From NCBI RefSeq assembly GCF_019649055.1, contig NW_026570536.1, positions 1 to 56,150 of the forward strand: a stretch of 56,150 nt of DNA, in the 5' to 3' direction. This DNA comes from Paramacrobiotus metropolitanus (taxonomy: Eukaryota > Tardigrada > Eutardigrada > Parachela > Macrobiotidae). A program made the translations under genes and the position numbers. Each line of letters begins with the position of its first letter. Position 1 is the first letter of the stretch. The notes under the pieces are model-generated. The model saw nothing but the letters and a program-made list of their open reading frames with translations. It ran no database searches and had not been told where the DNA came from. Positions 16,391 through 44,825 of the stretch are shown one piece after another.

Positions 16391-19379
16391 GTGGAGATCT
16401 GGCAGCGCTCATAAAACAAATACATCGCGAAGCGACCCAGCTCGAATATCTTACTGTCATTAGCTACGCACTGGAGATGGCCGACGGCTTGAGTTATTTA
16501 CTGTATTCGCTCGCACATCTTGGACCACAGAGTGTGTGTACGGGAAAAACGCGCATTCAATATACACACTCTAACCGGGCCAAACGCGCGATTCGCGATT
16601 TGATAAATTTCTGATGTCTTACAACATCTGGACTGGAGAACTTCTTGAATAATGAAAAAAATTAGAGCTCTAACAATTTTTATCATGTTTAGGCTCGAAA
16701 GCAGCCATTAACATACAGCTTTGGCGTAAGCACGAGTTACAAACGGATTTTGTTGTGGTTTTGGGGTGCCCCTGGAGGGGGAGGGGTACGTTCCGCGTCA
16801 ACATTCTTGATGGCGATGAACCACCGAACAATGCGAGCTTTCAGCTACAGAACCTTTTTTTCCAGAGTGAATTGCCATTTAAATGAAAAGACTTGATTTA
16901 ATAAACAAAAATTCACAAGAAGAACTGTTCATCTTGAAACCAAATGAGGAATATTTCGTAGTCGTGCATTTTGCCCGGTTAGAGTGTGTATATTAAATGC
17001 GTGTTTTTCCCGTACACGGACTCTGTGGTTCAAGATGTGCGAGCGGATACAGTACACCAAAGAGGCATTATTCACGGGGATTTGAAACCGGGGAATATCT
17101 TAATTAAAATTCTAGCGAACGGCCGACAGAAAGTTTCCATTGCTGATTTGGATGATCTGGTACAAATGCGGGATAGTGCAACATGTTCCGCTGATGTTTC
17201 CCATCTGCGCGGCACAGTACGCTATATGTCACCGGAAATGCTAAATAAGTTCGCTTTAACTTCCGTTAAGAAGGAAACTCCCGGACGAAAAACCGATGTG
17301 TGGAGTTTGGGTTGCATTATGCTGGAACTGGGAGACTGTGTAGTTCCCGCTCAAAGCAGAGGAAAACGGCTATGTCGAGAAGATAGTAGGACAACCGTCG
17401 AAGCGGGACACGCACTAGAAAATAGTCAGTTTGCTGTTCTAGTTATCGACGGCTATATTCCATTTGTTGCGGAAGCAATTCCTCCTGATTTTGCGCAGTG
17501 CATTCGGCGTTGCCTAACCAGAAATACCGAGCAGCGATGGTCTTCGAACAAGCTGCTACAGAAACTGTGCAACACTGACCTGCAGGCTTTAACCAAAGCC
17601 AGACAGGAGCGCCACATGACCGGCGTTTTTCGCTACAATCAAGAATCGAGAGCCTCTAAAAACTTCGGCGCAAGTGTTATTCTATTCGATTCCCAATCTT
17701 TCACGGTACAATCATTCCCGCTGCCAGAAAATTTACAGGGAAATGCCTGCAGTGCGCCTTTCCGGGTCCAGAGAAGACCGTTGTGCTCCAGTTCAAAAAT
17801 CGGACAGCCAAGGAATTTGAAACATTTTCTTGGGATGCGAGGAAAAACTCAGTCCGTCATATTAGACTGTCAGTCCGCATCAACCACCCGGTTACGGTCG
17901 GGAACAAAATATTTTTCTGGCGCCAGGGAACCACTGCAGAGTTTCGAGTAATCGATTCTTCCGATGGATGCCTGTGGACATCTCACGAATTACGCAGTCC
18001 GAAGCGGTAAGAACAATACTGGTTTCTATAAACCTTTTCAGTCCGGATTAAGGAAAGCGACCCGGTTGATGGTACCAAACTCACGTACATTCAGGGGAAA
18101 CTTTTGCATTCGGGCACCCCAGAACACATTACATTTTGTTCGTTGACCAAAGGATTTGTATGCATTAGCCTGAAAACTCGTTTATACGCGTAACATCCAC
18201 TTGGATAAAATAACACTGGTGACCATGCCGTTCACGATTTTCACTCGGTTTGCGCCCTCTGCACTGCTTTTCACTCCATGCACTACCTGTTGCGCTCACG
18301 ACCTTCTCGTTTCTTCGCTTTTCAAGTTCTCCCTTCAGGTAGAACGGGAGAAGACTCTGTGGCTTACTTTCAGCAACGTAGTTCTGCAAATTTCAAAAAG
18401 GTTGAACTAGAATTTGGTATACGTACACATACGACAATCTAGTTCATATCAAGATGCACATATTTGCAAAATTCAAAGAAGGTCATTTCATAATAAGCTT
18501 TTGGTGCGCCAGCCTGCCCTTACTCGTTTTGGAATGATTTTTTACTCGTATCTCCACAATGTAATGTGTATCTGTACACACACACGGTGTTCGCGCCACT
18601 GGCCAGTCCTCACCAACCAAAGCGGTCCAAAATTTTGTCTAAAACAACTACAATATTATTTTTATAAATTGTAGTTAGGCTTGTGTGCTTGACCAATGCC
18701 TTACAATGAATTAGTCCAAAGCCCGACGGAAGAGCACTTTAGCTATGTAACGTGACCAGTGTCATAATTATATTAATGTGATAAAAAAACCTTTGTGGTC
18801 TACGAGTAGATCTTTAAGGTGATGTTCAAGCGCTTCGTTTTTTTCAGAATTGAAACAGTGAAAAGCGGCGTACGATTTAATGAAAAAGCAATTTACATTG
18901 GACTGGAAATGCATAACAGGCGGACAATGTTTGTTGAATGCTACGATACCGTACGTGCTCGGTGGGAAACGTTCCCTGACTTCCCGGGAATTCGAGAAGA
19001 TTTCGCTATGGTTGCGCTACAAGAGTACATTTATGTTTTGGGTGGACGAACCTGTAATAGTGACAGTAACCACCCGGGTGATGCAGTATCTTCGTGTTTC
19101 CGCTTAAACGTCATCACTCGGCGGCAATGGGAAGACGTCTCGTCATTCCTCCTGCCGCGGTACAAGCACTGCGCGTTCGTATGGGGAGACCATGTATTCG
19201 TAGCCGGTGGTTTGAGCGCCGGTGGAAATTACGAAAATTCAGTGGAAATGTACAGTACTACACGCAGTAGTCCATGGCGATGTGCAGAGTTTTCGGTTGC
19301 TGATGGAGGAGTCGAAGGACTGCGGTCGTCGGTATCTCGTGGTGCATACATCGGCACCACTGCAGCGCCACTCTTTTAG
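16391..19379 (+). pseudogene. Protein kinase-Kelch fusion gene 1, interrupted by a MITE
   Basis: The exon at 16391 opens after a TTCTATAG acceptor and encodes the helix-D to helix-E part of a Ser/Thr kinase. The frame is then broken by the MITE at 16501-17052 and resumes exactly with HQRGIIHGDLKPGN (catalytic loop HGD), the metal-binding position as ADLDD in place of DFG, RGTVRYMSPEML (P+1/APE region) and KTDVWSLGCIMLELG. After the C-lobe comes a family-specific beta-rich segment. The donor lies at 18,006/18,007. The intron runs to 18,847, and a Kelch exon (18848-19379) carries ALQEYIYVLGGR and CAFVWGDHVFVAGGL blades. A frameshift occurs near 17,745. No N-lobe was seen. It is a paralogue of the gene at 24,159. 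Confidence 0.75.
16501..17052. mobile_element. Mariner-type MITE inside kinase exon, TA target duplication
   Basis: The ends are inverted repeats of about 80 bases: the left begins CTGTATTCGCTCGCACATCT and the right end, read in reverse, begins CTGTATCCGCTCGCACATCT. TA dinucleotides flank both sides (16499-16500 and 17053-17054). Removing the element and one TA rejoins the kinase frame across a conserved motif (LSYL to HQRGIIHGDLKP), so the insertion point is exact. The 552-base interior codes for nothing. TA duplication and short length fit a nonautonomous Tc1/mariner element. Confidence 0.85.
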
Positions 19380-28941: not shown

Positions 28942-29042
28942 AGTGCTAGAAGAAACAGTATATTGTATAAACATAAAATGGCGTCGGTTACGTCATAAAC
29001 TGGAGTTGGGAGCTGCACTTTCCAGCTGCAATTCCCGGTTGG
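28942..29042 (+). repeat. Polinton left terminal inverted repeat
   Basis: About 90 percent identical over its first 75 bases to the reverse complement of 44727-44825. The identity includes GGCGTCGGTTACGTCATAAA and GGAGTTGGGAGCTG, and then fades. A local imperfect hairpin (CTGGAGTTGG at 29000 and CCAACTCCAG at 29057) adds secondary structure to this end. Confidence 0.85.
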
Positions 29043-29120
29043 ACTTTATGACTACAGCTTCCAACTCCAGAATATGAGTCATCACAATTGTATAGTGTAT
29101 GTCCATAGTGCATACTATAA

Positions 29121-29123
<3 letters not shown>

Positions 29124-29158
<35 letters not shown>
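29124..29158. repeat. (TA)n microsatellite
   Basis: About 17 TA units just inside the left Polinton repeat. Confidence 0.95.
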
Positions 29159-29163
<5 letters not shown>

Positions 29164-29274
29164 TAAAATTTTATACAATAGTTAACTAATTACAGTCTTT
29201 CGGGAGGAAGTAAGTATTAAAGGCACCACGGAACGCATGAAACCTAGAAAAAAAAATAAGTGACTTTTGCTACA

Positions 29275-29499
29275 ATGGCGCGCATTGTGTGTAAAAAAAA
29301 CTTTTGCGAAGCCGTGGTGGGGACTTGCATTATTGTTATGTTAATTCTTATAATACTGCTGGAAGCATTTTTCGGAGCAAGCCACAGTGTCAGGACCTTT
29401 ATTAACAATTGCACCGCACTGGAAGTTGATGATTTACTCAATCGAAACATCACCCCATGGGCGAGTGTTAAAATCAGAGTCAACAATTCTACGTTTTGA
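29275..29499 (+). CDS. Possible small membrane protein at Polinton left end
   Basis: A 74-residue frame with one strong hydrophobic segment (VVGTCIIVMLILIILLEAFFG) preceded by basic residues and followed by a short soluble tail. It converges on polB and overlaps its 3' end by about 65 bases on the other strand. The overlap makes the tail suspect, but the membrane segment lies in free sequence. No homologue recognised. Confidence 0.3.
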   Translation: MARIVCKKNFCEAVVGTCIIVMLILIILLEAFFGASHSVRTFINNCTALEVDDLLNRNITPWASVKIRVNNSTF

Positions 29500-32400
29500 G
29501 TAAGTAAGTTTAAATCGTTTGTTAATTTCCGCCGACGAAACTTCCAGCTTGCGCTTATTGCGTGTTATGTTGAACGGATAATTCACGGTAATTCCGCTTG
29601 GCTGGTCCGGTGGTGCCAGGCTTTCCAGTAGCATCTCTTTCAGGCTTTCCAGGTTTAGCTGTTTTTCGCTTGCCGTGTCAACGTAAATCCCTTGACTTTT
29701 ATCGTTTCACATCCAGTATTTGTCCGGTAAGCATAGCTTTTGGTCCTGGGACAACAAAGAAATAACATTTTAAGTTGCTCGCATATTATTATCTAGATAA
29801 TTATTCTTTTACCAAGCGCTACAAATTCGTCAATGTACTCGTCAGGCTGTAAAGACGAGGACAAATCACCCAAAGCACGTTCCCGTTGGTGGATCGGGCA
29901 AATCGTCTCTATGGATGTAGAAAATGCTGTCTGCAAAATAAAGAAGTGGATGAGCAATTTGCCGATAATACTGTTTCGCGCGTTCACCTGTATCGTGGTA
30001 TAACAAACGGTCTCCAACCATTTCCATGAATTTTAATAAGTGTAGCCGTGCGTACGCAGTCGTAAAAGCTGCGATAACAACATTGGTCTTTTTGCTCGTC
30101 GCAATGTAGTCCTTCTTGGAGCGGTATTGAACTGCCATAACTTCATCGGTGACCAAATCGAACCCGGCGACTTCGTACTTGTTAGAAAACAAGTAATCAT
30201 GGAATACCTCTTTCTTTTCCACCATATCCGTGTTGGATCGGTCTTCCTGTTGACCAAATTTTCCCCTGCAATGAGCGTAAAAATAATGAACATGCACAAA
30301 TTAAATAAGTTCACATGTGTACCAAAAACTATTTAGCATAAGCTTGCAAAGAGCTCTCAATGCGTCGTTTTTCGCAATATTCTTTTATCCAGTAGAATAT
30401 TTTCTTTAGCAAGGAATTCTTGAATATATCTGTCTTTTCATCTTCCGTTTGACACTGTGGTGGATATCCAGAAGCTTCCGTTTTCAGCTTCAAAAACAGG
30501 TCAATGTATTCTCTGAATAAATACTGCATTTGTTCTGGATAGTGCCAAGCCGAGTATATTTTATCGATACGATAGCCAACTTCTAATGCTCGATGAATTT
30601 CTGGAGTGCACCAAGTTCCTTCCAGAGCCCTGTCCTCATCATCGTGAGAACATGGTTCGCTTACGCGTTCCGTCACGCATTTAGCGCATAAAGGAAAAGT
30701 CAGTTTATCAGTTTTGTAAGGTAGCACCGGTAAAAAACAACGACGGTGGAGGAATGACGCGACATTTAATTATTCCAAAATACTCTCCACAGGCGGAAAA
30801 TCTTTAGTAATGATAACAGGCGGTCCCACCGGATAAGGTAGATTTTTGTTAATATAAGGGTATTCGCTGATAACGTCGAGCGAATAGATTTTTTCTCCAG
30901 GATCGCACTTGTGGTACAACTTGATAGCGTTTGTCCTGCCACCAGTAAATGCGTCTCGGGGTGCATAGGTTCTTCAATACCGGTCAACTGAATTATTTTC
31001 TGAAATTCCAGGTCAGTAGTGAGCCGGCTATCATAGTCGTGTTCCCAGATCGAAACTACGGAATAGCCCATAGTTTTGATAGCTTCAAGGCGTAAGGCAG
31101 TTGCTTTGTTAACTTCCTCCATTGGCCGTTTCAGAAAGGGATGCAGCGTGCTTTTGTTGTGCATTCGCTGCAGCCGTGCCACATACATCCTGCACAAAAA
31201 CATTGAAGGTGAATTGCGTTTTGAATGTGATCGATAACATTTATATCGAGCTGACTAACCTAAAAACTCGTAAGCGGTTTTGTATCCCGATCAAAACCAT
31301 CCACAGTCCAGTGACCGATTCGATGCTCTTTTGCAATTTTACATCATTTTCCATTTCAATCCAGCGTAGCCAACGCTCTCCTTTGACAGATGACTTTTGC
31401 CCTGACCAGGAGGGCCGATCAACGCAATTTGGTTTTCCTTCAGCATTCGCGCTCTCCAAAAGTAATTGCACATGCCGGGTGTGGTTAGTCCAGACGCAAA
31501 TGGGCATAATCCATCGGTTACCTGTTGGAAAAGCGCTCGAAATTTTTCGCACGCTTGTTGCAAAATGAGGACATCTTGTGAGCAATACCTAAAACGAATC
31601 GGATAAGTTCGATTCTGTAAATAGCATAAGGGTTTAGCTTACTTGATAAAGTGTGCATTAAAGTCGAATTTGTTCCTGTGACGGCGTCGCTCTTTGCGGT
31701 ACCATTTCATGAAGCGCTTTCGTTCTTTCTTTTTCATAGACTGATAGCCATAGTCATGACGATCGGGCCAAGCAGTTATTTTATTTCAGTTTTCAGGGGT
31801 ATTAAGTTTGTGTGGGAAATCTCCTTTGGTTTCTTGCAAACCAAATGCTTTCGCAAAATTTTTTAACGATGATGGTACATAGTTCATAGAGTCACGAAAT
31901 TTTATTTTGAGTTTGGGCACGTCCATCTGCATAACCTTGCTCCCGTTGAAAATAAGCGGACGTGGAATAACGCCGTTTTTCACGAGATAATTCAAAATGA
32001 AGTATCCATCAAATCCCTGAAAAATAAATTATCAATTTATTTAATAAAGAAGTTACTTAACGTGTTGACTTTCGCTACCTTCAAATTGTGCGCCATAAAT
32101 GTGTAGCCACGGAAACGCTCACTGAAAATGAAATCGCCAAGTTCTTGTGAAATGTCGCCGTTAATATTACCGTTTTTGGAAGAATAAATTTTTCATTTTT
32201 TGTCGCGATCACCGCTAGGTTGACTTTAAATTCTCCACTCTCGTCTTGATATGTTTCCAGGTCAAAGTATGCCAGCTTGTCGTTATGGTGCTTGGCCTTT
32301 TCTTTATCCGTAAATTCCACGGGTTTCATATAACACACATGGTTTTCCTCCGGCATATAGAATAACGAGCAAGTCGCACACAAAACCTCACCACATCGAT

Positions 32401-33733
32401 GTTGCTGATCGTCAACATCTAGTTCGATTTCCTTAGCAATATCGTGGTCCTGGTCATTGTCCTCACCATGAATTGTATCGTAATTGGTCTTCATACGGCG
32501 ATTTACCATGGAGACAAAGGTTTTACACTCACGGCAAATGAAAAAATTTGCGCAGATGGTGCTGCTCCCAGCTTGGTGTCTGTCAAAACAATCTTGCCCA
32601 TAGAAATCGCGGTTACAGTCCAGACAGTGTATGGTTTCTTGCTTATTCATTTTGCAAGTTGCAGACAAACACTGGTGGCACTTGAACTCGCAGCGGTGAT
32701 ACTGTCTTTGATCGTAGCCTTTCATGCAACGGTAACAGTAATAGTGGTGCTCAAAATAGGCCGGTAAAGATGTTAAAACATCAAAATGTTGATCGTGATG
32801 CAGCAGCATAATTCGCTTTTCGCAGTAGGCGCCGCAGTAGACGATAGAATTTCCATGATCCACAGATACCACAATAAACTGATAATTCGGTAAAACTTCT
32901 TCAAAGCGGGGAATATCTTGCACGTTGAATTCTCTGTTTGGCAGGTTGGCAGTCAACAATAATTCTTTTGTCTTCTGGTCTTGCAACTTTATGGTTCGGT
33001 AAAGCTTTGTGTACAGCTCTTTGTCGCCATCTGCATGCGCTTGTGCCACAACTATAGCCCTGGCCATACACAAACAGTCCGTATTTCGAATCTGGGTAAT
33101 ACATCTTTTGTTGTCTAAAATCCGCTGCAACAATTTTGATACATTTTTTCTGCATGATCCGGATGGCAAATCAGTGTGCTGGACTGACAGTTCAAATGAT
33201 TCGTCTAGCAGAAAAGCCTGATTAGAGTTTAGAATCCGCCTTATTGTCGTCATCCACCGTTCAATTGTTATTTGGTCCCGCCGAATAGGTGGCATCCAAA
33301 TTGGATACTGCAGAGCATTTTGATACATGCGGATTCGCACCAGGTTATGCGCTGGAATCGCAGCAATCACACTCTCCAGAATATCTTTCAAAACGAGTGT
33401 TATCGTTTTAACAGCATACTTGAACGATAGATTATCCAGCCCCGTCACTGTACATTTGTAAGTTTCGAACGAAACTGAAAATTTCTGGGAATATTTTGCT
33501 CCGATATTTTCGAGCACATAATAATCTTTAATGTCATTCAAGTCTGGATCGACTTCGTCAGCTATATTCAAAGCTGGCAGATCAGCTCGTGGTACAGTAT
33601 AATTATGATCAAGAAGAGCATAATCATGATTGAAAAGTGCGGTATCAGCAAACTGTGGGTTACTAGTACAGGCGTTAGAGTTGCCCTGTACACGATCAGG
33701 TACTTGCGTCATCGTAAAGACGAGCTCTGGCAA
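29434..33733 (-). pseudogene. polB: Polinton protein-primed DNA polymerase B, intron-containing and damaged
   Basis: The N-terminal 550 residues (32081-33733) include several CxxC pairs typical of Polinton polymerases and end with the first exonuclease motif, FDLETYQ. The second exonuclease motif spans a 62-base GT-AG intron (32017-32078). The third follows near 31,900. Polymerase motif A (SLDVISEYP, about 30,880) and the KTEASGYP segment of motif B (about 30,470) are present. The motif C DTDS box is split by a 57-base GT-AG intron (29931-29987). The thumb and conserved C-terminus (YSKRRIVDSDFNT) follow. At least four single-base shifts (about 30,990, 30,785, 30,735 and 29,875) and one TAG (about 30,335) interrupt it. 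The enzyme replicates the element DNA in family relatives. Confidence 0.9.
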
Positions 33734-33812
33734 CGTGATTTTACTAGTCTCAAAGATGCACCCAAGATACTCAGATTATATATGAATAAATTCCGCTACA
33801 GCATTTTTGTTA

Positions 33813-34655
33813 TCATCTGAATTTTCCAAACAGATCGCTCAATGATTCATGCGCTAAAAATGTCAGGCATGTTAATATCCGCGATCCTTTTTTGTTCAGT
33901 GCGGTCCTCACCGGAAATGAATACAGCTCCACAACGGATGCAGCACCTGTTACCCTGTTCATCTGCAATTTCGTAAACCTTGTCAGAAATGTTTTAAAAA
34001 GAACATCAAAATTTGAGCACGTACCCGAATAGTAATTTAGATCTGGTCTTGAAATTCGACTGCGCCATCGTCGATGATGACGAACGCCAGTGTCGGGGAT
34101 CGGCATGCGGCAAAGCAAGCATTTTTTGGAACTTTTTAGATACTGAGTCAGCATCCAGTTTGAGTAAGCCTGCGCTTTGTTGGGACTGTAGCATCTGTCA
34201 TTGCATAAATCGGAAAAGCGCGGGCAGCCTAACGAGTCCAAGTTGATGCAATCAGATTTTAATAAATCCTGGATAATACCGCACTTTTCTGAACCTTTTG
34301 CGTAGAAAACAACGCTTAGGGGGTCTTTAACGTTTTGCAGATAGTTTCTGAACGCTCGATTTATCTGAATCTCCAGGTCCGAGAAATCTTTAACAAATAT
34401 TTCATCGACATTCGTGGAACTGATGCCGTACTTGCTAACAATGTAATTATCCGGAGGAAGCAAAAATCGGGTGTAATATAGACAATGGAAATCAACAGAA
34501 CTAATTGCCAGTTCCGTTATAATTGACTTCTCATTACGATTATACCATTTGATGTCCACAACAATTCGAAAACCATTCTGCTTCGCCAAATAGAAATAGA
34601 TGCAGTAAGGAAAAACTGCTATGAAGCACATGTTTTGGCAAGACCACGAGTACAA
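33813..34655 (-). CDS. Nuclease-like protein A of the Polinton (DEDD/RNase H-like fold suspected)
   Basis: A 280-residue open frame directly upstream of polB. Near residue 32 it has an acidic beta strand (VVDIKWYNRN), then SIITELAI, a LLPP step, and later SVVFYAKGSEKCGII and NLDSLGCPRF. This spacing recalls DEDD-type exonuclease-like proteins in mobile elements, but catalytic acids are incomplete, so the enzyme role is unproven. The same landmarks occur in the plus-strand ORF at 42,387. The C-terminal third is Cys/His-containing and unassigned. The frame is open throughout, unlike most neighbours. Confidence 0.5.
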   Translation of the reverse strand: MYSWSCQNMCFIAVFPYCIYFYLAKQNGFRIVVDIKWYNRNEKSIITELAISSVDFHCLYYTRFLLPPDNYIVSKYGISSTNVDEIFVKDFSDLEIQINRAFRNYLQNVKDPLSVVFYAKGSEKCGIIQDLLKSDCINLDSLGCPRFSDLCNDRCYSPNKAQAYSNWMLTQYLKSSKKCLLCRMPIPDTGVRHHRRWRSRISRPDLNYYSGTCSNFDVLFKTFLTRFTKLQMNRVTGAASVVELYSFPVRTALNKKGSRILTCLTFLAHESLSDLFGKFR

Positions 34656-34972
34656 AATGCGATGTCCTGTTTATATTTCGAAACAAAACATCCACATGGC
34701 AGCGCAATGTTGCTGTAGTGTAATATTTTGTTGCACTGCAATTTGTTGCGGTACAAAGTAACTACACCTACACTCATACGTAAGGGTTTGGATGGCCAGA
34801 CTTTATTGCATTATTTGACGGAAAACAGACTGAATTATCATAGAGCGATCACGTATTACAGTGTTCAAATCAAAATAATGATTAATATAAGCACAAACCA
34901 TTCGATCATTCGACGATTTGCTATTGGTGAACAAATGAATAAGAGAGGTAAATGACTCGCCGGAGCATCGTT

Positions 34973-35322
34973 TTAGAATAAAAAGCAGCAGTACTGTCCG
35001 CACACGGTACTCCATTCCATTTGTAAACGATGCGCTTGCGAAATAACTAACTCGGCGTTCTTGCAAAAACTTTCAATATGGATGCCGTAAAATCTCGGTT
35101 CGTGACCATAAGAGTCAAAATATTCCAATTTTCCCGGGACGTCCTGGTAGAACGCCAACCAATGCGAGCCTGGCTTTGCAGCTTCGTCAGTATTGACAAC
35201 GCATGCCCATGGCAGCTTCATTGGCAGGGACGGTGGTAACATGTCCGCAGCAAATACACCAATAAAGCATCTTTCGTCACGGTACTTGAACGTAGCACGT
35301 GGTCGATTTCAGCAGTGTCCAT
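34973..35322 (-). pseudogene. Adenain-like cysteine protease (capsid maturation)
   Basis: The core frame (34973-35242) shows the adenovirus/Polinton C5-type active site in order: His in GSHWLAFY, Asp in YFDSYG, and Cys in the CGQYC stretch close to the C-terminus. The N-terminus (ATG at 35322) is in another frame, with one single-base shift near 35,287. The size, about 115 residues, is normal to slightly short for Polintons. In relatives it cleaves capsid precursors. Its position between the nuclease-like ORF and the capsid gene is typical. Confidence 0.85.
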
Positions 35323-35561
35323 TTTAGTGCCGATCTGCATTCAAAATAAAATCTGAATTTTTTTTTTTTTACACTTTGTCCTGTAACAACGGCGACCGAG
35401 AGCGCGAAGCGCCCGGTCGCCCATTGTTTACCACATCCGTCACGATTCTCTTCAGCGTCAAAAGGGGCCGACGGTGCGCCCACCCCCGCTGGCGACCCTG
35501 AAGCTTACCGCGCAGGCAACAACACGGCATTTTTAAGTCTTACAACACTTACGTTAGGTTT
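35323..35561. other. Short spacer with a poly-T run
   Basis: Between protease and capsid genes. It holds a T run at about 35,358-35,370 and no supported gene. Confidence 0.5.
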
Positions 35562-36892
35562 TTACGCTGTAAAATCCGCAATTAGCTGGCGATGTGAATT
35601 GACTTCAATAATATTATCCCACACCATCATCGTAATGGCCATAATTGGTTCAGTTAATTGGGCGGCGAACTGCAGGCGGATTGATAGATTTCCTTGGCGC
35701 ACGGTGCTCATCGGTCCCCGGCCTGTCCGTGAAGGTGTCAGATCGAATCCCCAAATAGAAAATCCTTCCGCAAATGCTTTACGGTCGAAAGGCAGCGCCC
35801 CGTCCGGTGCGTGCAAGCGGCCGAGCGTCTCCAACAGACCGTCATATGATTGCAAATAATCACCCGTGGCGAAATTTGGTCGGTAGGCTTGTGCGGGATA
35901 CGACTGTCCGTCGACTTCGACACTTATATAGTTGAGATTGAAATGTTCAAAGTTAAACGGATTACCTCGGCGCAGCCCGTGAAAACTCGAGCTTTTTACA
36001 AATCCCACAAAAACACATTTGGGTACTGCTCCAATATGTAAATTAGCCAGCACTGTGCTCTGAATCATACCAATATCATTAACACGCATACACACTCGCT
36101 CAATAGGGTATTTCACAGTCTTTGTCGATAATTGGGCAGTAAGCGCAGACAAATATGCCGGATTAGGCACAAAGCGTTTGACGTACAACCGCGGATTGCG
36201 AATGTATGCTTTAAAGGTATCCACTGGAAGATTGGCATATGTACGCAGGTAGAATTCCGGCTTATTCAAAATGAGGCGCACATGTAGCGGTACACCGGTG
36301 ATCAAATTTTTCCCTGCTGAAAAATGTCCGTACATAATTTGGCGCTGAACGGGACGTACTCGTTGGTCACAAACATAGCTTTTCGCGTTACTTCTCCAGC
36401 GTTATTGGCATGATCTTCTAGGTACCCGGGAGTGTCTATATAAAATCCAGCACTTGTTGCCTGGCTTTTAGGGCAGCCGGTGTGTACCCCAACAAATTTT
36501 CCAAGTACGCTCGGTAGGCATATAATGGGGTGGAATTAGTTATCAGGCGGTTGGCCATTGTTACCTCTACCGAGCTGAATATAGAATGCGCAATCAAGTT
36601 CACTGGTGCTACCAGATCCGTGTTTTCAATATGCGTAGCCGCACCAAGTCCTGCAATTTGCTTTTTGATTGCAATATCCATTTCTAGCGTAATTTCCGGT
36701 AGCACTAGCAGCGCCGACGTTGAAGGGGAATGTAAAGGAAATTTCTCCAGAACTAATTTCTTCTGTTTGCCCTGATGTTGGTAGAATGCGTTCTTCTTCT
36801 GTCCGCACAAAATCCGCTAGAGTGGCCGGAACGGAGAATAAATCCGACTCGACCTGCATAGCTGGCACGCTTCCTTCCAAAATAAAAGCCAT
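35562..36892 (-). pseudogene. Polinton major capsid protein, double jelly-roll
   Basis: The start at 36892 opens a short frame (VPAMQVESDLFSVPATLADF). After shifts near 36,720 and 36,450 the middle frame shows NLIAHSIFSSVEVTMANRLI and YAYRAYLENLLGY, landmarks of the first jelly roll. The long frame 35562-36335 carries the second roll, with NPRLYVKRFVPNPAYL, and ends with FAAQLTEPIMAITMMVWDN and a DFTA tail. About 440 residues in total is a normal size. In relatives hexons of this fold build an icosahedral particle. Two or three shifts make this copy nonfunctional as read. Confidence 0.85.
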
Positions 36893-36939
36893 TTTAAAAT
36901 GCGTCCTCAAATTCTCTTGGGGGAATCCGTTTAAGCCGT

Positions 36940-37359
36940 TTAAGTCGGAAGGAAGGTTTCTTTATCTTTTTTGTCCTCTTGTGCTGCTGCTTGAGCCGTT
37001 TGATGCCTCCTTGCTGTTGAGGTTGCGCAGTTAACGCTTCCGAAATTTTCTCCTACCTTCTTGGATGTTTCACTTAAAACTGTTGTCGCTGCGTCGCGTA
37101 AGTGGGGCTTTGCTGCTTCCATTGCTGCTCTGGCATGTGGTGCCGCTGCTTTAATAACCGGGGCAGCAAAATGCGCTAATTTACTAAACATTGCGCGCAG
37201 GAAATTAGGTAGCATAAATCCGCTGCCATTTTGCATTAAACTCCCGCGATAGCGTGTCATGACGGCTCCATAGCCGTGCTGGCTACTAGCGCCCGTGGCG
37301 GCCCCCGCAAATAAATCCAGATAGAACGATGGTGACGGCTCAAAGAGGATTACGGGCAT
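36940..37359 (-). CDS. Polinton pVI/PX-like minor virion protein
   Basis: Starts three bases below the penton stop. It has a short N-terminal peptide, then GYGAVMTRYRGSLMQNGSGF with the Gly/Arg pattern of this family, an amphipathic helix (LPNFLRAMFSKLAHFAAPVI), an Ala-rich helical middle and a Gln/Lys-rich tail. Adenovirus pVI-type proteins cement capsids and lyse membranes. The assignment is by position between capsid genes and by layout. The frame is intact at 139 residues. Confidence 0.6.
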   Translation of the reverse strand: MPVILFEPSPSFYLDLFAGAATGASSQHGYGAVMTRYRGSLMQNGSGFMLPNFLRAMFSKLAHFAAPVIKAAAPHARAAMEAAKPHLRDAATTVLSETSKKVGENFGSVNCATSTARRHQTAQAAAQEDKKDKETFLPT

Positions 37360-37361
37360 TT

Positions 37362-39829
37362 TTAGCGATAGTAATACTGAATGGGGCGGAAATGCAGCTT
37401 TACCATTGACTTTCCAGTCTGAAAAATTGCCGCTTCTCCGAGATCAGTTGCAATGTTGATATCAATAGTGTCCAGTCGATCGTATAAAACAGGTAAATAA
37501 TGTGGATCCTCAAACCTTTCGGAAACAATTTCGAAGCGAGGAACACTTGCTTTAATGGGGAAAGCGCGCAAAAGCTGCATAGTTTCATCGCCCACAATAT
37601 TGTAGTCGCACTTGTTGCAGTAGACAAAAATTGACTGGTTCCCAATGTGCATATTTACGGGCTTATCTGCTGTCATTGTTATAGACGTCTCCAACAGTTG
37701 CAACTCTGCCAGGGCTTTCAGCTGGTCGGACAGTGTTGTAGCTGCGGAAGCAAAATCTGTTTTTCCATTAAAAAATTTTCATATTGTTCAGACTGTGCAG
37801 CAGAAAATCGTCGTTCTTTAAATCCAAGCATACGGGATAGATGCAAAGATGAGGGAGGAAAATCCAGAAAACACGTACGCTGGGAAATTTGACTTTGAGC
37901 TTGGGCTCGGTTGCAAATAATTCTAGTTGAAAGCCGCCTGTTCTTTCGCTGAAGAATCGCGAAATGGCTTTAACCGTGGTACTTTACTGTTGATAAAATT
38001 AATGATGTCACTTTTCTCATAGATCCCTGCAGGTACCGTAATTGTGTCCCTCTCCATAGCGAAAACACCGTTGCTATCCATAGAAGTAATTTGGTCAACG
38101 TGCAACGTTTGGGGACTGGGTAAATTGTACATTGAATTAGGATACTGTATTTCCACCAATGCCATTTCCCATTGTCCCGGTAGCGATATCACGCTCTTTA
38201 ACTTTGTGGTCCATTCAGCTGCATTATTCTTTGGGAACTGTTGCATACAGTAGAGCCCTGCAACGGACTGGGAAATCCGATCCACTCCGAACCCACTCCG
38301 ATTTTCGGACCGGATTGGACGGATTTCAATCTGGAAAATTCGGAGTCGGAGTGGTTTCGGAGTTTTTGTGCACCTGATCGGATCGGGTTCGGATGCAATC
38401 GAGACTCCGAATAATCCGTAATTAAATAAATATTATTAATTAATTTTGATTGAATTTCACCGGCCTTCAAAACAAAAATTTTCGTCAGCGTCGCGCTTCG
38501 CGCGATGCTTCCATTTGCGCTTAATTAATTTGCACTGAAGTATCTGCTTTTGTTTAGTAAACTGTTGTTAATTCTCTTTCATTTCCTTTTATTAATTCTC
38601 CGGACACTTTTGAATATTTAGAGTGTTTTATGATTGTTATGATGTCGTTATTTGTTATCGTCTTATCAAATAATTTTAGTATAACTACTACAGTACGTTA
38701 AATGGATCACATGTGTGTTGTGCAGCTCAGTCAGTTTCACTAGGCACCGGCTTCCCATTTTTATTTGCAGCACTTGTAATTGGATTAATCCTGGAGATTA
38801 AGATAACAGTAATATTATATACGTTTAACTAAACTTACTCTAAGGTCCTAAAGAATACATGAAACTACCAATTATTTTAGTTCCGGACGTGTAGATACAT
38901 CCCTTCCTTTAATTTTCTCTCCCTTTTTTTGACCCTGGCTAATATGTGGGTAATCCGTGGGGTGAACCGGATACAACAAAAAGATCTGATACAGATTCCC
39001 GACAGTGAGGATAGATAATACAACGTGGACTGAAACGCTACGTACTGGATTGCCTTTCCGGCGGCCCAGTCGCCTAACTTGATCTAACTGTAATCAAGTT
39101 ATGATGGTGTAGGAATAACGGAAATACGGGAACGTAACAACAACAGGTTTTGGCAGTAGTTTAATAACGTTCGGTCGATCGATCGGTCGTAAGAAGTCGT
39201 TAAGAATAAGATTCCATTCCTTCCGTAAACAGTAACAGACTGCCATTTTATAGGCGAAGAGACATGAGTGTTTAGGTAAGGCTAAATGAGATGGGATAGG
39301 TTTTTTTGATTTAAGATTACACTCACAAAGTTTACACTTTACACTCAGACAGTTTACTCATACAACAGTTGTACATTATTAGTCACATACGCTATAATAA
39401 CTAACCTCCCCAGATGCTTCGACACTGTAGTGCTAAAAAACTAAATTTATCTAAAAACTATTTCTTGTATATGTAGATCCTCAGCGTACCCATTGTATGC
39501 CCAAGAAAATTGTACTTCTGAATTCTGAACATCTTTTGCTACCGAAACATGGCACTAAAAATTTTTTTAATGTAGGGATGTGTAATAAATCCAAGTAATA
39601 AATTGTTCTTTTCGAAAATTTTTTCGGATCGGATCGGAGTGGGTTCGGATTGGCCAAAATATTTTCGGATCGGATTGATCGGGTACGATTTTTTAGAATT
39701 CGAGTCGGACTGGGTTCGGATAAAACTTTTTTAAGTTCGGATCGGACTGGACGCAGTTCGTACTCCGTTGCAGGGTACTAACATACAGGCATCAGATGGA
39801 AGCGTGACATAAAAGCTATTATGAGCCAT
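37362..39829 (-). pseudogene. Polinton penton (single jelly-roll minor capsid), split by a hAT MITE
   Basis: The first 14 codons (SFYVTLPSDAC region, ATG at 39829) are separated from the rest by the transposon at 38251-39780. The frame resumes at about 38,250 with the conserved LPGQWEMALVEIQYP segment. The middle part is shifted at least twice (37,700-37,920, including SRMLGF). The C-terminal frame 37362-37703 has YCNKCDYNIVG and ends with VKLHFRPIQYY, the closing strand typical of the family. The ATG overlaps the integrase stop. Penton proteins fill the five-fold vertices in relatives. Confidence 0.85.
38251..39780. mobile_element. Nonautonomous hAT element inserted in the penton gene
   Basis: The ends TAGAGCCCTGCAACGG and (reversed) TAGTACCCTGCAACGG are inverted repeats. 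The flanking 8-mers GCATACAG (38243-38250) and ACATACAG (39781-39788) match at seven of eight bases. Inside the ends are many direct and inverted copies of TCGGATCGGAnTGG-like units. The 1.5-kb interior has no transposase frame. Insertion lies inside the penton coding sequence, so it came after the Polinton arrived. The end sequence resembles the hAT MITE at 22,951 (both begin TAGT or TAGA). Confidence 0.88.
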
Positions 39830-40842
39830 TTCTGACACGACTGAGTTCGGCTTCGTAATATTTCCGCAATTAAGTCCCGTCTTCATCCAGTAATACGTAG
39901 AGGGCTCAGGCTGTTGTGGTAATACTTGGTGTATCTTGTAAATTTCCTCCTTAAATGTTGACTCATATCCTTTTTTCAAAAAGTGTTTTGTCGATGGCTA
40001 CTCGTACTGTGTCACCTACGCTGTACTTTGGCTTTCTGCTTTCCCAATAATAATTCTGCATATAGTCGATTGAATATTTGCAGAGAAATTGGACCTTCGT
40101 CCTCATTAGGCGTGACTTTATGCGAAGAATGAATTGCGTTGTTGTAACTGTTTACCAAATCTCCCAGAACGTCCCAGTACACTTTAGACTGTCGGTGTCG
40201 AAACAATTTCCATATTCGTTTCTTGAGATTGCGTATGCCATTTCAGCTAAGGATGCTTTGATTGCTTTATTTTCAGAAGAGAACAAAAAAAACCTTTTAG
40301 GCTGTCAAAACTCTTAACGTCCTTATTGTAAAATTCAAGACCTTTGTCCGTTTGCAATTTAATGGGAGCTCCGAGTTCTGCAACACCTTTTCCAACCCAA
40401 GTTTTACTTCTAGACCGCTTTTATTCTTTAGTAGTTGACAGCTCACTTTCTTGCTGAAGACGTCGATCAAACAATATCCAACGGTATCCTTTGTTCTGCT
40501 TCGCATATTTTGACATGTCTGCCAGATCGGCTTGATATTGCTCCACAGGTTTGAGACAACTACGGGGTTTCTTTTGAACCTTTTTGCGTCGAGATTTGTG
40601 GACTGTATATGGATCCAGATGCTCAGCTGTTCCCGCGTTTGTTGATAGTTTGGTGCTTGTGGAAAGTGGCTGCGAAACTTTTGAATCCCTGTTAAGCTGC
40701 CCGGGTGCTGAGGTTCAGATACGCTTGTCGTAGCAGTAGATTGGCCATCGTATTCGTCGTCGCTACTGCTTGATCCATCGCAACAGCTAGATGTGCAGTT
40801 CCATGTCATACCTTCACCCAAAGACAAAGAAAGGGAACGCAT
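39819..40842 (-). pseudogene. Polinton retroviral-type integrase
   Basis: The N-terminal frame (40297-40842) has a Ser/Asp-rich leader, then the SHFPQAPNYQQTREQLSIW region and the core strand around DVFSKK with downstream KNKSGLEVKLGLEKVL. A first catalytic Asp segment (about 40,540) and the second (TDKG-type segment, about 40,330) are visible only in other frames. The 40012-40206 frame holds LVNSYNNAIHSSHKVTP. The SH3-like C-terminus (FKEEIYKI) follows. There are at least three shifts and a stop near the end. The stop at 39819-39821 overlaps the penton ATG. The enzyme inserts element DNA in relatives. Confidence 0.85.
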
Positions 40843-40852
40843 CCACCACCAC

Positions 40853-41335
40853 TCATTTGTTATTAATAGTCATCCAGTTGAACTGGGATTTGGTTCTTGA
40901 ACCGATGGGACCTTCGATTTGTAAAGTGTTTTCATCAAATACTTCTCGCTTTGCACGCTTGCGTTTTGCCGGGGGTGCAGGTGGAATAGGAGGGAAAGCA
41001 TCTAACATACGATCAGGCATATTAGGGGGTACCCACGGCTTCTTTAATAGTTGTACTGGAATGGGGGGCACAGATGCTGGAGGCGGAATAACCATTTGGT
41101 CAGGGCCGAACGCCGACTCTTTCAGCGCCAAAAAGCGAGCCAAGTTTCTTGATAACAGTTCCGCTTTCTCCCATTCGCTTAGCGTATTCCGTGAAATTAT
41201 ATCTCTCATCAAATCGTCCAGTTTACAATATCCAACTGCAGTGGGCTGCTGTTGTAATTGGACATCCGTTACAATACGACCAACAAATGTCACTTGCAAG
41301 TCTTTCATTTCGCTCGCGGGAACAATATAATGCAC
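40853..41335 (-). CDS. Conserved Polinton-type protein of unknown role, Pro-rich centre
   Basis: A 160-residue intact frame between integrase and the next small ORF. It starts with a short hydrophobic segment (HYIVPASEM). A helical block (YCKLDDLMRDIISRNTLSEW) follows with EKAELLSRNLARFL, then a Pro-rich linker with repeated PPIP/PPAP and a Lys/Arg patch (KRKRAKRE) that could act as a nuclear signal. ORFs with this helical block next to integrase recur in animal Polintons, but the function is not established. Confidence 0.6.
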   Translation of the reverse strand: MHYIVPASEMKDLQVTFVGRIVTDVQLQQQPTAVGYCKLDDLMRDIISRNTLSEWEKAELLSRNLARFLALKESAFGPDQMVIPPPASVPPIPVQLLKKPWVPPNMPDRMLDAFPPIPPAPPAKRKRAKREVFDENTLQIEGPIGSRTKSQFNWMTINNK

Positions 41336-41342
41336 TTCGGTT

Positions 41343-41671
41343 TCATTTCAGTAAGGCAGTTCCCAAAACAGCTGCCAATACAGGTAGAACCGCAGGTAAG
41401 AATCCTCCGCGCTGTAATAAAATTTCCCTCTTGCTTCGTAAAGGATATTTTTGAGGGCAATCAGCTTTAATGGTCGACGCCAACGCTGACACACCTTTAG
41501 CTGATCGGTGGTAAGAGGCACTGAATTCTTTACCAAATTCAAACAAATTTCTTCAAAACAGCGAAGTTGTCGTTTCGAAATATTTTCCAAAAGAAAACGA
41601 CGCTGCTTGGGTTTCAGCGATCGCAGGGTAAGGAGAAACGGTGCAAAGTCTTTTAAAATCTGATCACACAT
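41343..41671 (-). pseudogene. Small conserved Polinton protein with hydrophobic C-terminus
   Basis: A helical N-terminal part (TLRSLKPKQRRFLLENI, CFEEICLNLV, PLTTDQLKVCQRWRRPLKLI) is followed by a one-base shift near 41,435. In the other frame the protein ends QRGGFLPAVLPVLAAVLGTAL, a hydrophobic tail that may be membrane-active. Proteins of this pattern, ending in a Gly-Gly-Phe-Leu hydrophobic tail, are common in animal Polintons. Their role is not known. Confidence 0.6.
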
Positions 41672-41709
41672 TCTTGGGCAAGGTTGTCGTATGTGGATTA
41701 ATGTAAATT

Positions 41710-42352
41710 TTAGTCAACTCTCCCGGTAATATTGCTGAACAGAATCCTTAAATAGGCAGGTGTGTCCGGTTTCATATCCAGAATGAGAGGTTGAAATGGC
41801 CGACTTCCTCGTAAGCTCCGCTGAGATGTTTTAAACCAGTCTGCCTTTCTAGAATCTTGATTTGGTTCACATCACGATTATTTTTGAACAGTATAAGATA
41901 TTGTGCATTAAGATGCACGTCTCATAGCAGACCCTTGTTTATATAGGTTATTGAATAATAGAAATACACAAAGCCGTTTATGGTGTACTTTTTTGAGTGA
42001 AGTTTAGCCAAATGCTCATTTTTCACCAAACCACTTGCCACGTCATCCAGTATCAACAAAATATTTTGTTTACCATCAAAATAATTTTCATCCTCCACAA
42101 TTTGTTGAATATTTTTGTCAGTTCAATCCAAGGGACTTTGCGCTGAAGCACTTCGTAGGCTGGCTGCATTTCTCCGTACACCAAAATAATTCGTCCAAAT
42201 GGTTGGTCAAATAATTTATCGCGCTCCATAATTAATTTTGACACATATGTCGTTTTCCCCGAAGTCGTTGGCCCCACAACAAGGACTGAAGCGGGTAGTC
42301 GGAATCTCAAATCAGCTGTCGTGCGCGGATACCTATTTAAGTCCATTTCCAA
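41710..42352 (-). pseudogene. Polinton genome-packaging ATPase (A32/FtsK-like)
   Basis: Starts at 42352. The Walker A loop is GPTTSGKTT, and the Walker B strand (ILLILDDV) appears near 42,040-42,060 after a one-base shift near 42,100. The expected central segment is shortened or shifted. The C-terminal part (FKN, then NRDVNQIKILERQTGL) resumes near 41,880. Several shifts. In relatives this ATPase pumps DNA into the particle. It lies divergent to the plus-strand ORF at 42,387, with only 34 bases between. Confidence 0.85.
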
Positions 42353-42386
42353 AGGGCGGAGCTATTGCTAGCGTACCGATAACAGA

Positions 42387-42841
42387 ATGGAGACTTCAAA
42401 GCGGAGGGTTGTCTTAGATATTGATTGGTTTATCGCTGGCTCCCAACGGCTTATAAAACAGCTGGCATTTTGTGATTGCCCAACTAGTGTTAGCAGGTGC
42501 TACACATTCACCATTCCATCCCACTTTAATCCTTACCGCGTTGAATTTAGGAGCCAATCGCGTCACTCACACGGACTTGTCTGGCATAATCGTGGAGACT
42601 ATTTATACTTGGACATCGCCAGGGCGATTCAGGATATGCTGGAGCTTATTGGTGAACGACCTGCGCGTTTGACGTTTTTGTAAAGTTGGAAAAGCAAAAG
42701 ATTTTGGAAAATTATTTGCCTGAAGTGTTTAATCTTGAAGACATTGGGTGCCCGAAGTTTAAGGAGCTTACTTCATTACCACAAACAACGCTTTCAAAAG
42801 CGGAGACATTTGCAAATTGGCTGAATGGCGAAAATAACTAA
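42387..42841 (+). pseudogene. Nuclease-like protein B of the Polinton, paralogue of protein A
   Basis: Opens with an acidic beta strand (RRVVLDIDWFIAGSQRLIKQ). A conserved-looking YTFTIPSHFNPYR step follows. After a one-base shift near 42,681 comes FNLEDIGCPKF and a C-terminal helix (KAETFANWLN). The same order and the NL(E/D)xxGCP(K/R)F signature occur in protein A at 33,813 on the other strand. At about 150 residues it is much shorter. Its stop overlaps the start of the TBP-like ORF by 17 bases, a virus-like arrangement. The shift may be decay or assembly error. An exonuclease-like fold is suspected only. Confidence 0.55.
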
Positions 42842-43427
42842 CGTTGTTGCAACTGCTGACCTTGGCTGCGCAATTGACTTACCCAGCTTATCCGAACGCG
42901 CTCCGCTTGCTCATTATGCACCACATAAATTTTCCGGGCTTCTTCTCCGTTCCATTCGTCCTTACAAATCGCACTGCCAAGTGTACCGCAACGGCAAGAT
43001 CACAGTTAATGGTGCAAAGTCCATCAGTGATGCTCTCGCGTTATTGGATCACTATTACCGGAAACTGCAAAATACGGCTATCAAAAGCATCGTTAAAGAA
43101 TCCAAGAATTGTTAACATTGTCGCCACTTTCAATTTTGGGAAATTTCTTAGTTTAGAGAAATTATACAACTCAATAAGAGCAAAAGCTGATGCCATGTTT
43201 GAACCTGAAATATTTCCCGGCCATGCGAGTCCGGCTTTCAAGGTTGTACGGCGATGATTTTCCATTCTGGAAAAATTAATTTATTAGGTGCAAAAGATGC
43301 TGATACTCTTCATACTGCTGAAAACAGAATTGCGCCTGTTATTAGGAACCTAAATGCAGCAGTAAATAAAATTACAAAAAAAAGCTATCGTTGCATATTT
43401 CTGTTACCTGGCATTACAAAGCATTAG
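42825..43427 (+). pseudogene. TATA-binding-protein-like protein encoded by the Polinton
   Basis: Two imperfect repeats of the TBP saddle are visible. Repeat 1 (42825-43075) has TNVVATADLGCAIDL, YAPHKFSGLLLR and YRNGKITVNGAKS. Repeat 2 (43095-43400) has RIVNIVATFNFGKF, FEPEIFPG and MIFHSGKINLLGAKDA. Order, spacing and the two GAK turns match TBP, whose core is about 180 residues. Here start and stop are in the same phase 200 codons apart. Two compensating shifts (about 43,090 and 43,245) put repeat 2 partly in another frame. Of the intercalating Phe positions, the KF and IF ones are kept and one is Tyr (VYRNGK). In eukaryotes, archaea and some giant viruses TBP positions RNA polymerase at promoters. 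A promoter-selecting role here is inference. Confidence 0.85.
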
Positions 43428-44726
43428 TGCTAAATTTATTAAGAAATGTAAAGAACGTTTACCCTTAAAAGTATCTGGTACATACTACATATACAGTGCA
43501 ATACTGTACAATACATTACTCATTAATTATGATAATTAGATTTTATTACGAAATGTATTTTTTTGTTATAAAGCATTGAGCAAACATACAAGCATATAAT
43601 AATAATTTTTGTAATCAGGAAACTGCGGAATCAACAAATTACGCCATACCGTTGACAAGGTGGAAAAATTCTTTGAGAAGTTCAGGCCAACTTTTCCCAC
43701 TCAAACCCTCGTAGTTTATAGCAGCCCCGAAACTATGTACACATGACAAATACAGCATGGGTTACAACGTAATATAAACTAAAACACTTGCTTCACTTAC
43801 TTCGTGTACAAGAAATTCATAAATTCTGCAATTAGATAATCGTTAACAGAAACGTGGCTTTGGCTCCAGTGGAAAAAAATTTTGCAACGACCCTGGCGGA
43901 CTTTTTCCAGTTGATCTGCACGCACGCATAAGCATGCACGCAGTAGACTGCAAATAATTGTCAAAATTGATTACACACTACAGGCATAATGTACAGTAAT
44001 AAAGAAGATAATATTCCATCGTACCTGTTAGTTTCCATGATTATATATGTATAAATAAATTGAGAATAGAGCAGCTAGTAATATCCACTGAAAAGTAATT
44101 ATATTTCACTTACTATGCGTTGAAAGGCTTTGACGAGCCAGATGCGTTAAAGTGCTCCTCCATAGTGTAAAAGAATGTAAACAACTTGTTGAATCAAGCA
44201 GTGAAAGTAAACCAATATAACTGTACAGTGTACAGTAGTATCCATATAGTACAGTACCATCCATCCATCCGTACAGTACTCCAACCATTGGGCGCATGTC
44301 AAGTTTCACAATTATATATAAGCCGTGCACAATCCAGTTAAGCAATTAAACTACTCGATAAGTTGACAAATAATTTGTATATTATAAGTGCGCAGCATTA
44401 CTATAAGTGTTTTCAATCAATAAGAGACGCGCATGGTATGCAGCACCATCGCTGACGAGCCAGTTGCGCTAATGTGCCAATGCCGCTCCATGCGGTAAAG
44501 AATGTAAACAACCACTTGCACGCGTGCAACACGGCTGCACAGGTAGCTGCATCTGGGCTGCGAGCATCCTTGAGGTATGCACAGCAGATGCACCAGCGTG
44601 TGTGTGTGATTATCAGTAAGTGAGTAAATTAGTTAGTGTACTTCTATACGTGTACATATGCAGTAATCATATGCTGCAGTTGTGCTGAATCATATGCTGC
44701 AGTTGGGAGCTGCAAGTACAAAAAGC
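43428..44726. other. Noncoding right flank of the Polinton with subterminal repeats
   Basis: No gene recognised. Two imperfect direct repeats (44131-44188 and 44453-44512) share TGACGAGCCA, TGCG, CTCCAT and AAGAATGTAAACAAC. Short TACAGTAC motifs recur (44,227, 44,255, 44,271). The stretch is AT-rich and may hold origin or packaging signals, but none can be shown. Confidence 0.45.
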
Positions 44727-44825
44727 ACAACCGAATTGTAACTAGAAAGTCCAGCTCCCAACTCCAGTTTATGACGTAACCGACGCCATCTTATGTTTAT
44801 ACAGTATACTGTTTCTTCTAGTGCT
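44727..44825 (-). repeat. Polinton right terminal inverted repeat
   Basis: Mirror of the left repeat, ending CTTCTAGTGCT on the plus strand. Just inside is a tandem duplication of AATCATATGCTGCAGTTG (44,665-44,706). The same fold-back potential seen at the left end recurs here (CAGTTGGGAGCTG and CAGCTCCCAACT). Confidence 0.85.

Follow-up and report, generated by a model that had tools for sequence, protein, structure and literature searches.

A TATA-binding protein gene carried by a Polinton-type element lineage of the tardigrade Paramacrobiotus metropolitanus

Most of the large virus-like transposons that we found in the genome of the tardigrade Paramacrobiotus metropolitanus carry their own TATA-binding protein (TBP) gene, and TBP is well supported as a core gene of a Polinton-type lineage. 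It has been proposed that several groups of eukaryotic DNA viruses descend from Polintons, and we know of little work on how transcription in these elements is controlled. We analyzed a stretch of 56,150 nucleotides (positions 1 to 56,150 of contig NW_026570536.1, hereafter the window), for which a reading of the letters alone (the original prediction) had proposed a TBP-like gene as cargo of a Polinton. The observation of a two-repeat TBP in a Polinton-type element is confirmed. A promoter-selecting role with altered DNA specificity appears, from sequence comparison, to be the best-supported reading of its function.

Results

Structure of the window element

The window holds a Polinton-type element of about 16 kb (28948-44819). 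It is bounded by 145-bp inverted repeats (arms 28946-29090 and 44677-44821, 83% complementary) and, on inspection of the sequence, by a perfect 6-bp duplication. Polintons are known to make target-site duplications of this length. Inverted repeats and duplication flank 42825-43424, and the TBP gene therefore lies inside the element, within the terminal repeats as had been proposed. The gene map is given in Table 1.

Table 1. Features of the Polinton-type element, in positions of the window.
Feature	Position	Strand	Remark
Left target-site duplication AGTGCT	28942..28947	.	identical to 44820-44825
Left terminal inverted repeat	28948..29090	+	element starts AGAAG
Family B DNA polymerase remnants, protein-primed type, several broken pieces	29400..33800	-	PF03175
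X2, relative of X1 (DnaQ/DEDD-exonuclease-like fold family)	33816..34670	-	X-family HMM E=1e-22
Adenain-like cysteine protease (PRO), in pieces	34806..35308	-	homologue L021:7003-7530
Major-capsid-protein candidate, in pieces	35565..36816	-	label from size and position only
Run of small conserved element genes	36439..41921	-	same-order homologues in L027, L029, L037
TATTTAAGG motif, within the ATPase gene towards its 3' end and ahead of the following gene	41746..41754	-	same site in divergent families
DNA-packaging ATPase, in pieces	41775..42361	-	weak P-loop matches; homologue L029:5611-6318
TATTTAAG motif, 53 bp before the X1 ATG	42334..42341	+	motif scan; reads TATTTAAGT at 42334
X1 gene, two frames here (42387-42680, 42656-42838)	42387..42841	+	3' end inside the TBP start
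TBP gene: repeat 1 42825-43112; repeat 2 to 43254 and 43209-43424	42825..43424	+	PF00352; L027 homology
Right terminal inverted repeat	44677..44819	-	pairs with the left arm
Right target-site duplication AGTGCT	44820..44825	.	identical to 28942-28947

The polymerase piece at 30332-30727 matched PF03175 with E = 9.6e-5 (21.9 bits, under the cut-off of 25.8), and a homologous ORF in a related locus (L036:5759-8914) matched the same profile with 2.6e-51. For the protease, the homologue listed in Table 1 matched PF00770 with E = 5e-4 (20.2 bits, under the cut-off of 21.3), and the best Pfam match of the ATPase homologue was Pox_A32 (E = 7.5e-4, 19.5 bits, under the cut-off of 22.8). Homologues of the capsid candidate adjoin the protease gene and are up to 482 amino acids long; searches of Pfam, PHROGs and PDB sequences gave no match that would link the candidate to the double jelly-roll capsid protein expected of a Polinton. 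A retroviral-type integrase domain was not recognised in those ORFs that were scanned in the window element and in related copies. Elsewhere in the genome, rve domains lie within about 3 kb of TBP at C17:1067235 and C5:2062003 (positions compared by eye, with 150 of 1154 candidates scored).

The element shares with Polinton/Maverick (adintovirus-like) elements the inverted repeats, the 6-bp duplication, a viral-type family B polymerase and the size of about 16 kb, together with its weak matches to an adenain-like protease and a packaging ATPase. It differs from them in having a TBP gene and, in many copies, PC4-like and DnaQ-fold genes. The earlier label 'animal Polinton' is borne out as regards the tardigrade host, and is qualified by the integrase result and by a capsid label that derives from size and position.

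Two further observations concern the window itself. A stretch of about 1.3 kb (38440-39730) holds ORFs that have no counterpart in the 20 loci described below, and its flanking genes are adjacent in L027 and L029; judged by this comparison, the window copy probably acquired it by a later insertion. A 93-bp inverted repeat with a 370-bp spacer (16499-17054, 90% complementary) is possibly a small non-autonomous element.

The TBP gene of the window copy

Both TBP repeats are present and in the right order, as originally proposed. Repeat 1 matched Pfam PF00352 with E = 1.3e-18 (67.1 bits, cut-off 22.9), the first half of repeat 2 (piece 43066-43254) matched it with E = 4.8e-7 (30.0 bits), and the end of repeat 2 matched the TBP ORF of locus L027 at 1e-30. 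The predicted 17-base overlap with the upstream gene was also found: X1 has its stop at 42839-42841 after a last piece that runs to 42838, and the TBP ATG lies at 42825. The description of 42825-43427 as a single ORF had to be given up. The gene contains internal stops and occupies two frames with two frame changes over 603 bases, which means that the window copy is broken; X1 and the polymerase of the same element are broken as well.

Genome-wide linkage of TBP to element genes

We searched the genome (169.8 Mb, 533 contigs) and found at least 230 TBP-like loci besides the host gene, fragments included. As the searches scored only part of the candidates (150 of 427 for the ATPase, 95 of 558 for the capsid candidate and 150 of 284-493 for TBP, the PF00352 profile search having scored 150 matches of 493), the linkage figures describe scored loci. 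A TBP lies within 12 kb of 139 of the 150 scored packaging-ATPase loci and of 84 of the 90 scored capsid-candidate loci, where about 3.3% would be expected in either case under uniform coverage; 11 ATPase loci and 6 capsid loci among those scored are TBP-less. Seen from the other side, an ATPase or capsid match lies within 12 kb of 158 of the 230 TBP loci among the loci scored, and 72 of 230 have none among the matches listed. A shorter TBP list linked only 93 of 150 ATPase loci, because most of the TBPs that it missed are divergent ones, found later by queries of their own. With a shorter TBP list, TBP was located 2-3 kb downstream on the same strand in 58 of 79 linked capsid loci and 4-5 kb upstream on the opposite strand in 17 of 79. 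Given the linkage to ATPase and capsid candidate, the claim that TBP is cargo of the element and not a nearby host gene was, if anything, understated, and other copies of the element, against which the claim could be checked, carry the TBP gene as well.

The surroundings (about 10 kb) of 20 PF00352 matches were extracted as L-numbered loci. All 20 contain at least one further ORF related to the window element (polymerase, protease, capsid candidate, ATPase or small genes). A single-sequence search labelled the TBP ORF in 19 of them, the remaining locus (L033) containing pieces of a divergent TBP by profile. Gene X is present in 18 of 20 loci, and a relative of X (P0149) has a DEDDh-exonuclease-like fold in a predicted model. 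Profile search detected a PC4-like gene in 12 of 20 loci (L021-L024, L028, L030, L032, L034-L036, L038, L039); from its sequence, the upstream half of this gene looks like a second, degenerate PC4 unit.

Individual loci showed further peculiarities. Identical 178-aa TBP ORFs occur at four loci (C81, C110, C134 and C185), which suggests recent spread of a family or duplication in the assembly, and contig C112 has a TBP-like locus. On C81, a BIR-domain ORF (L021:4010-4684, minus strand, E 2.7e-21) partly overlaps the 3' end of the TBP ORF; this BIR (inhibitor of apoptosis) ORF is a possible anti-apoptotic cargo gene in one family. In six of eight regions (L083, L085, L087-L090) the TBP and ATPase genes face each other head to head and their start codons overlap as CATG.

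Conservation and origin of the element TBP

Forty distinct TBP sequences (37 main-type, 3 divergent) contain both repeats in a single ORF, and 38 of the 40 reach the end of repeat 2. Median dN/dS was 0.18 and 98% of values were below 0.5 (57 of 666 pairs with dS 0.05-1.5), indicating from the sequences that the element TBP gene is under purifying selection.

The host TBP gene is located at C4:406165-406662 (L001) and groups with the TBP of Hypsibius exemplaris (P0011) in a quick tree. Near-identity to this gene, which had been named as a sign of a chance pseudogene, was not seen: the TBP of L029, a close intact relative of the window copy, is only 27% identical to host TBP. We searched 5.8 billion proteins, using one element TBP as the query, and found 29 relatives, among them an annotated P. 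metropolitanus protein (P0127, 'TATA-box-binding protein-like'). The other 28 (sources ena, jgi and lgn; 41-60% identity), some of them on contigs of 19-28 kb, are taken to be metagenomic. Contigs of 19.4, 20.0 and 27.6 kb carry P0007, P0132 and P0122. Another database relative, P0008, was obtained in a separate search.

A careful tree of 64 rows (from the genome 14 main-type and 3 divergent TBPs, 21 from the database, 24 cellular and 2 marine) placed the element and database TBPs on one side, and all other rows on the other side, of a split with support of 100/99 and a branch of 2.48. Genome and database lineages were intermingled in the quick tree. We rejected a recent capture from the tardigrade host on the strength of this split and its branch, set against an AU test that did not reject element TBPs and host TBP as one clade (p 0.271). 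Given the AU result, the element TBPs may still derive from an animal TBP at some early date.

The two marine sequences, L061 and L062 (NHEP01000089.1 and NZ_PABT01000004.1), are contigs recorded as bacterial MAGs that encode a divergent TBP and are possibly binned eukaryotic virus. In the quick tree their TBPs group with cellular and not with element TBPs.

Fold and DNA-contact residues

We modelled a database relative (P0122) from 29 aligned proteins, with P0134 left out. The model (pLDDT 97.1, pTM 0.86) superimposed with a TM of 0.94 on the yeast TBP-TATA structure 1ytb and likewise on the TBP chain of the human TBP-TFIIB-DNA structure (1c9b_B). By its sequence the element protein is a true two-repeat TBP, and the predicted fold of this relative is the TBP saddle. 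A sequence search of the PDB returned 35 distinct TBP-relative sequences, which are TBPs of transcription systems.

Residues were compared between 37 genome, 29 database and 117 cellular TBPs, the cellular set being unbalanced because it was taken from a single search listing, in which TLF/TRF2 are not knowingly included. Residues are given in yeast TBP numbering, with their roles (DNA intercalation, groove contact, TFIIB side, TFIIA side) as known for TBP. Three of the four intercalating phenylalanines are retained in all 29 database sequences and almost throughout the genome: F99 is F in 35 and Y in 2 of 37, F190 is present in 37 of 37, and F207 in 36 with one gap. The fourth, F116, is replaced by tyrosine (37/37 genome, 28/29 database). 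Groove contacts have changed in the same uniform way, namely L114 to Q (37/37 and 27/29), V122 to T (37/37 and 29/29), T124 to N (37/37 and 29/29), V213 to N (35 plus 2 gaps of 37, and 28/29) and T215 to L (35 plus 2 gaps of 37, and 27/29). All six switched DNA-contact positions are constant in 116-117 of the 117 cellular TBPs. The three divergent TBPs have L114 to Q and T215 to L in common with the main type and leave F116 unchanged. On the TFIIB side E188 is retained (33/37 genome, 28/29 database) and E186 in only 11/37 and 12/29; the TFIIA-side lysines are not retained.

Element and cellular TBP (host C4, L001) thus have the two repeats, the fold and most intercalation sites in common, and are set apart by the low identity and the six uniformly different DNA-contact positions. 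As polar side chains replace Leu, Val and Thr in the groove, we predict a different base preference. A DNA-reading surface altered this consistently suggests that the elements have a promoter code of their own.

A motif upstream of some element genes

We collected 94 non-redundant sequences upstream of element genes and examined the final 100 bp of each. These show no clear enrichment of TATAAA (6.4% of regions vs 4.3% of background windows). ATTTAAG was among the top enriched words (9 of 94 vs 1.0 expected), and ACTAGT and CGCGGA were likewise enriched. Across 198 kb of element loci, with host flanks and copies related to each other counted in, there are 15 occurrences of TATTTAAGG. The motif precedes X1 in the window, in L025/L026 and in L027/L029, and is absent before X1 in the relative L037. 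Nine of the 20 ten-kb pieces have TATTTAAG on neither strand, despite containing X, TBP, capsid-candidate or polymerase genes.

We then took 20 more regions at ATPase 3' ends, picked by coordinates and some of them closely related. TATTTAAG was found on the coding strand in 14 of them and on the other strand in 2. Markov shuffles averaged 0.23 and never exceeded 4, and 14 comparison words, mostly one-base variants, were found in 0-3 of the 20 regions each. The site encodes Tyr-Leu-Arg (Y-L-R). In a codon test on 15 ATPase representatives of less than 75% identity, the codons at the motif site were TAT in 10/10, TTA in 10/13 and AGG in 7/13 cases, against TTA for 23/96 Leu and AGG for 4/71 Arg in other conserved columns; binomial values for this test are not exact because the families share ancestry. 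The other conserved ATPase columns mostly had near-expected codon identity, except that an Ile column (ATT 9/9) and a Cys column (TGT 6/6) were equally constant. Since the synonymous codons of the site are kept, the DNA string and not the peptide alone appears to be held. The distance from TATTTAAGG to the next open ATG was 82-83 bp in 9 of the 11 regions with the 9-mer and 59 bp in one, and no such ATG was seen in one.

Of the eight head-to-head ATPase/TBP regions, none had the motif on the TBP side, where about 40-209 bases upstream of the gene were covered, and one had it on the ATPase side. Given this rarity, TATTTAAG(G) can represent at most one promoter class. It is enriched upstream of some genes only, even within coding sequence. 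The suggestion that the TBP picks promoters has indirect support from the uniform changes in DNA contacts and from the recurrence of TATTTAAG(G) before some but not all element genes.

Discussion

From linkage, conservation, the fold of a relative and the residues at the DNA interface we infer a mechanism for the element TBP. We think it fairly probable that it is an element-specific promoter-recognition TBP for host RNA polymerase II, acting at least partly via TATTTAAG(G). The protein would bind and kink element core promoters through its changed minor-groove surface, and the box that it recognises would be, at least in part, TATTTAAG(G) instead of TATAAA. Its convex side would recruit host TFIIB and RNA polymerase II, allowing the element to transcribe a subset of its genes from promoters of its own. 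Help might come from the PC4-like protein that many of these elements encode, either in transcription or as a single-strand binding protein. The whole scheme would resemble the way in which beta- and gamma-herpesviruses use their viral pre-initiation complex.

A wider proposal is more tentative, and we would lean against it if it had to be judged as a whole. It sees a Polinton lineage with its own promoter code, in which a TBP for a TATT-type box, the PC4-like protein and the DnaQ-fold protein X might form a minimal viral pre-initiation complex on host RNA polymerase II within an element of about 16 kb. Promoters would lie in the coding sequence of neighbouring genes, and TBP would be an old core gene and not a recent host capture.

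Precedents for virus-encoded TBPs exist. In one report, the herpesvirus proteins BcRF1/ORF24 are described as TBP-like proteins that bind a TATT box and recruit host RNA polymerase II, and these TBP mimics are given as about 10% identical to TBP (PMC4893493). A viral TBP fold, a TATT-type box and the recruitment of host RNA polymerase II would be common to the element protein and to BcRF1/ORF24/UL87 of beta- and gamma-herpesviruses, which we treat as functional analogues only; the element protein differs in being recognisable as a TBP by sequence and in having about the size of the TBP core. TBP is reported in 59% of mirusvirus genomes (PMC10132985), sporadically in mirusvirus-like elements of an alga (PMC10675990), in megavirus chilensis (PMC11464507) and in an algal virus (PMC12085832), the mention of Polintons in the last two concerning another matter. 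Mirus- and giant-virus TBPs are likewise true virus-encoded TBPs; their carriers are large viruses, and of candidate viral TBPs our tree included those of L061 and L062.

No Polinton TBP was found in the literature that we searched (Polinton, Maverick or adintovirus with TBP or TATA, tardigrade, Paramacrobiotus; mostly without subscription papers and preprints), nor did a text search find one in PMC11071308, PMC10120064 and PMC12220804. The remark in the original prediction that it knew of no TBP in standard descriptions of animal Polintons agrees with our search, and an element-specific TBP as core gene of a Polinton lineage is real and, as far as searched, unreported.

Other functions are conceivable for such a protein. 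As a decoy it would occupy TFIIB, TAFs or host promoters and so dampen host transcription or silencing. A fold largely retained together with some convex-face contacts while DNA contacts have changed is what a decoy might look like, and the BIR/IAP-like ORF next to one TBP suggests host-interaction genes in some elements. However, a decoy has no need for six DNA-contact positions re-set identically across families, and the TATTTAAG pattern hints at a DNA target within the element, so we regard this role as unlikely.

Slightly less likely still is a DNA-bending factor that serves replication, integration or packaging and not transcription. The DNA-kinking residues are retained, the window TBP lies near the element end, and in 6 of 8 regions the start codons of TBP and packaging ATPase overlap, all of which would suit such a factor. 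The solved relatives (35 PDB sequences) and the best fold matches, however, are TBPs of transcription systems, and the motif precedes genes and is not derived from the terminal repeats.

We give the same low standing to a protein that supplements host TBP in ordinary TATA-box function, with the residue changes as drift. Expression would be boosted by a general TBP, three of the four intercalating phenylalanines are kept and TATAAA is slightly commoner upstream of element genes than in the background, but the residue changes are the same throughout and selection on the gene is purifying. Chance insertion of a host TBP or its pseudogene into one Polinton, which the broken state of the window copy might bring to mind, is ruled out for practical purposes by the linkage (139/150 and 84/90), the 27% identity of L029 to host TBP and the 100/99 split, and the database relatives speak against it as well.

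Promoter recognition by the element TBP, if true, would provide a natural orthogonal TBP-promoter system in an animal and, after the herpesviruses, another viral TBP acting on a TATT-type box. It makes testable the idea that small virus-like elements may separate their expression from that of the host by a change in TBP specificity.
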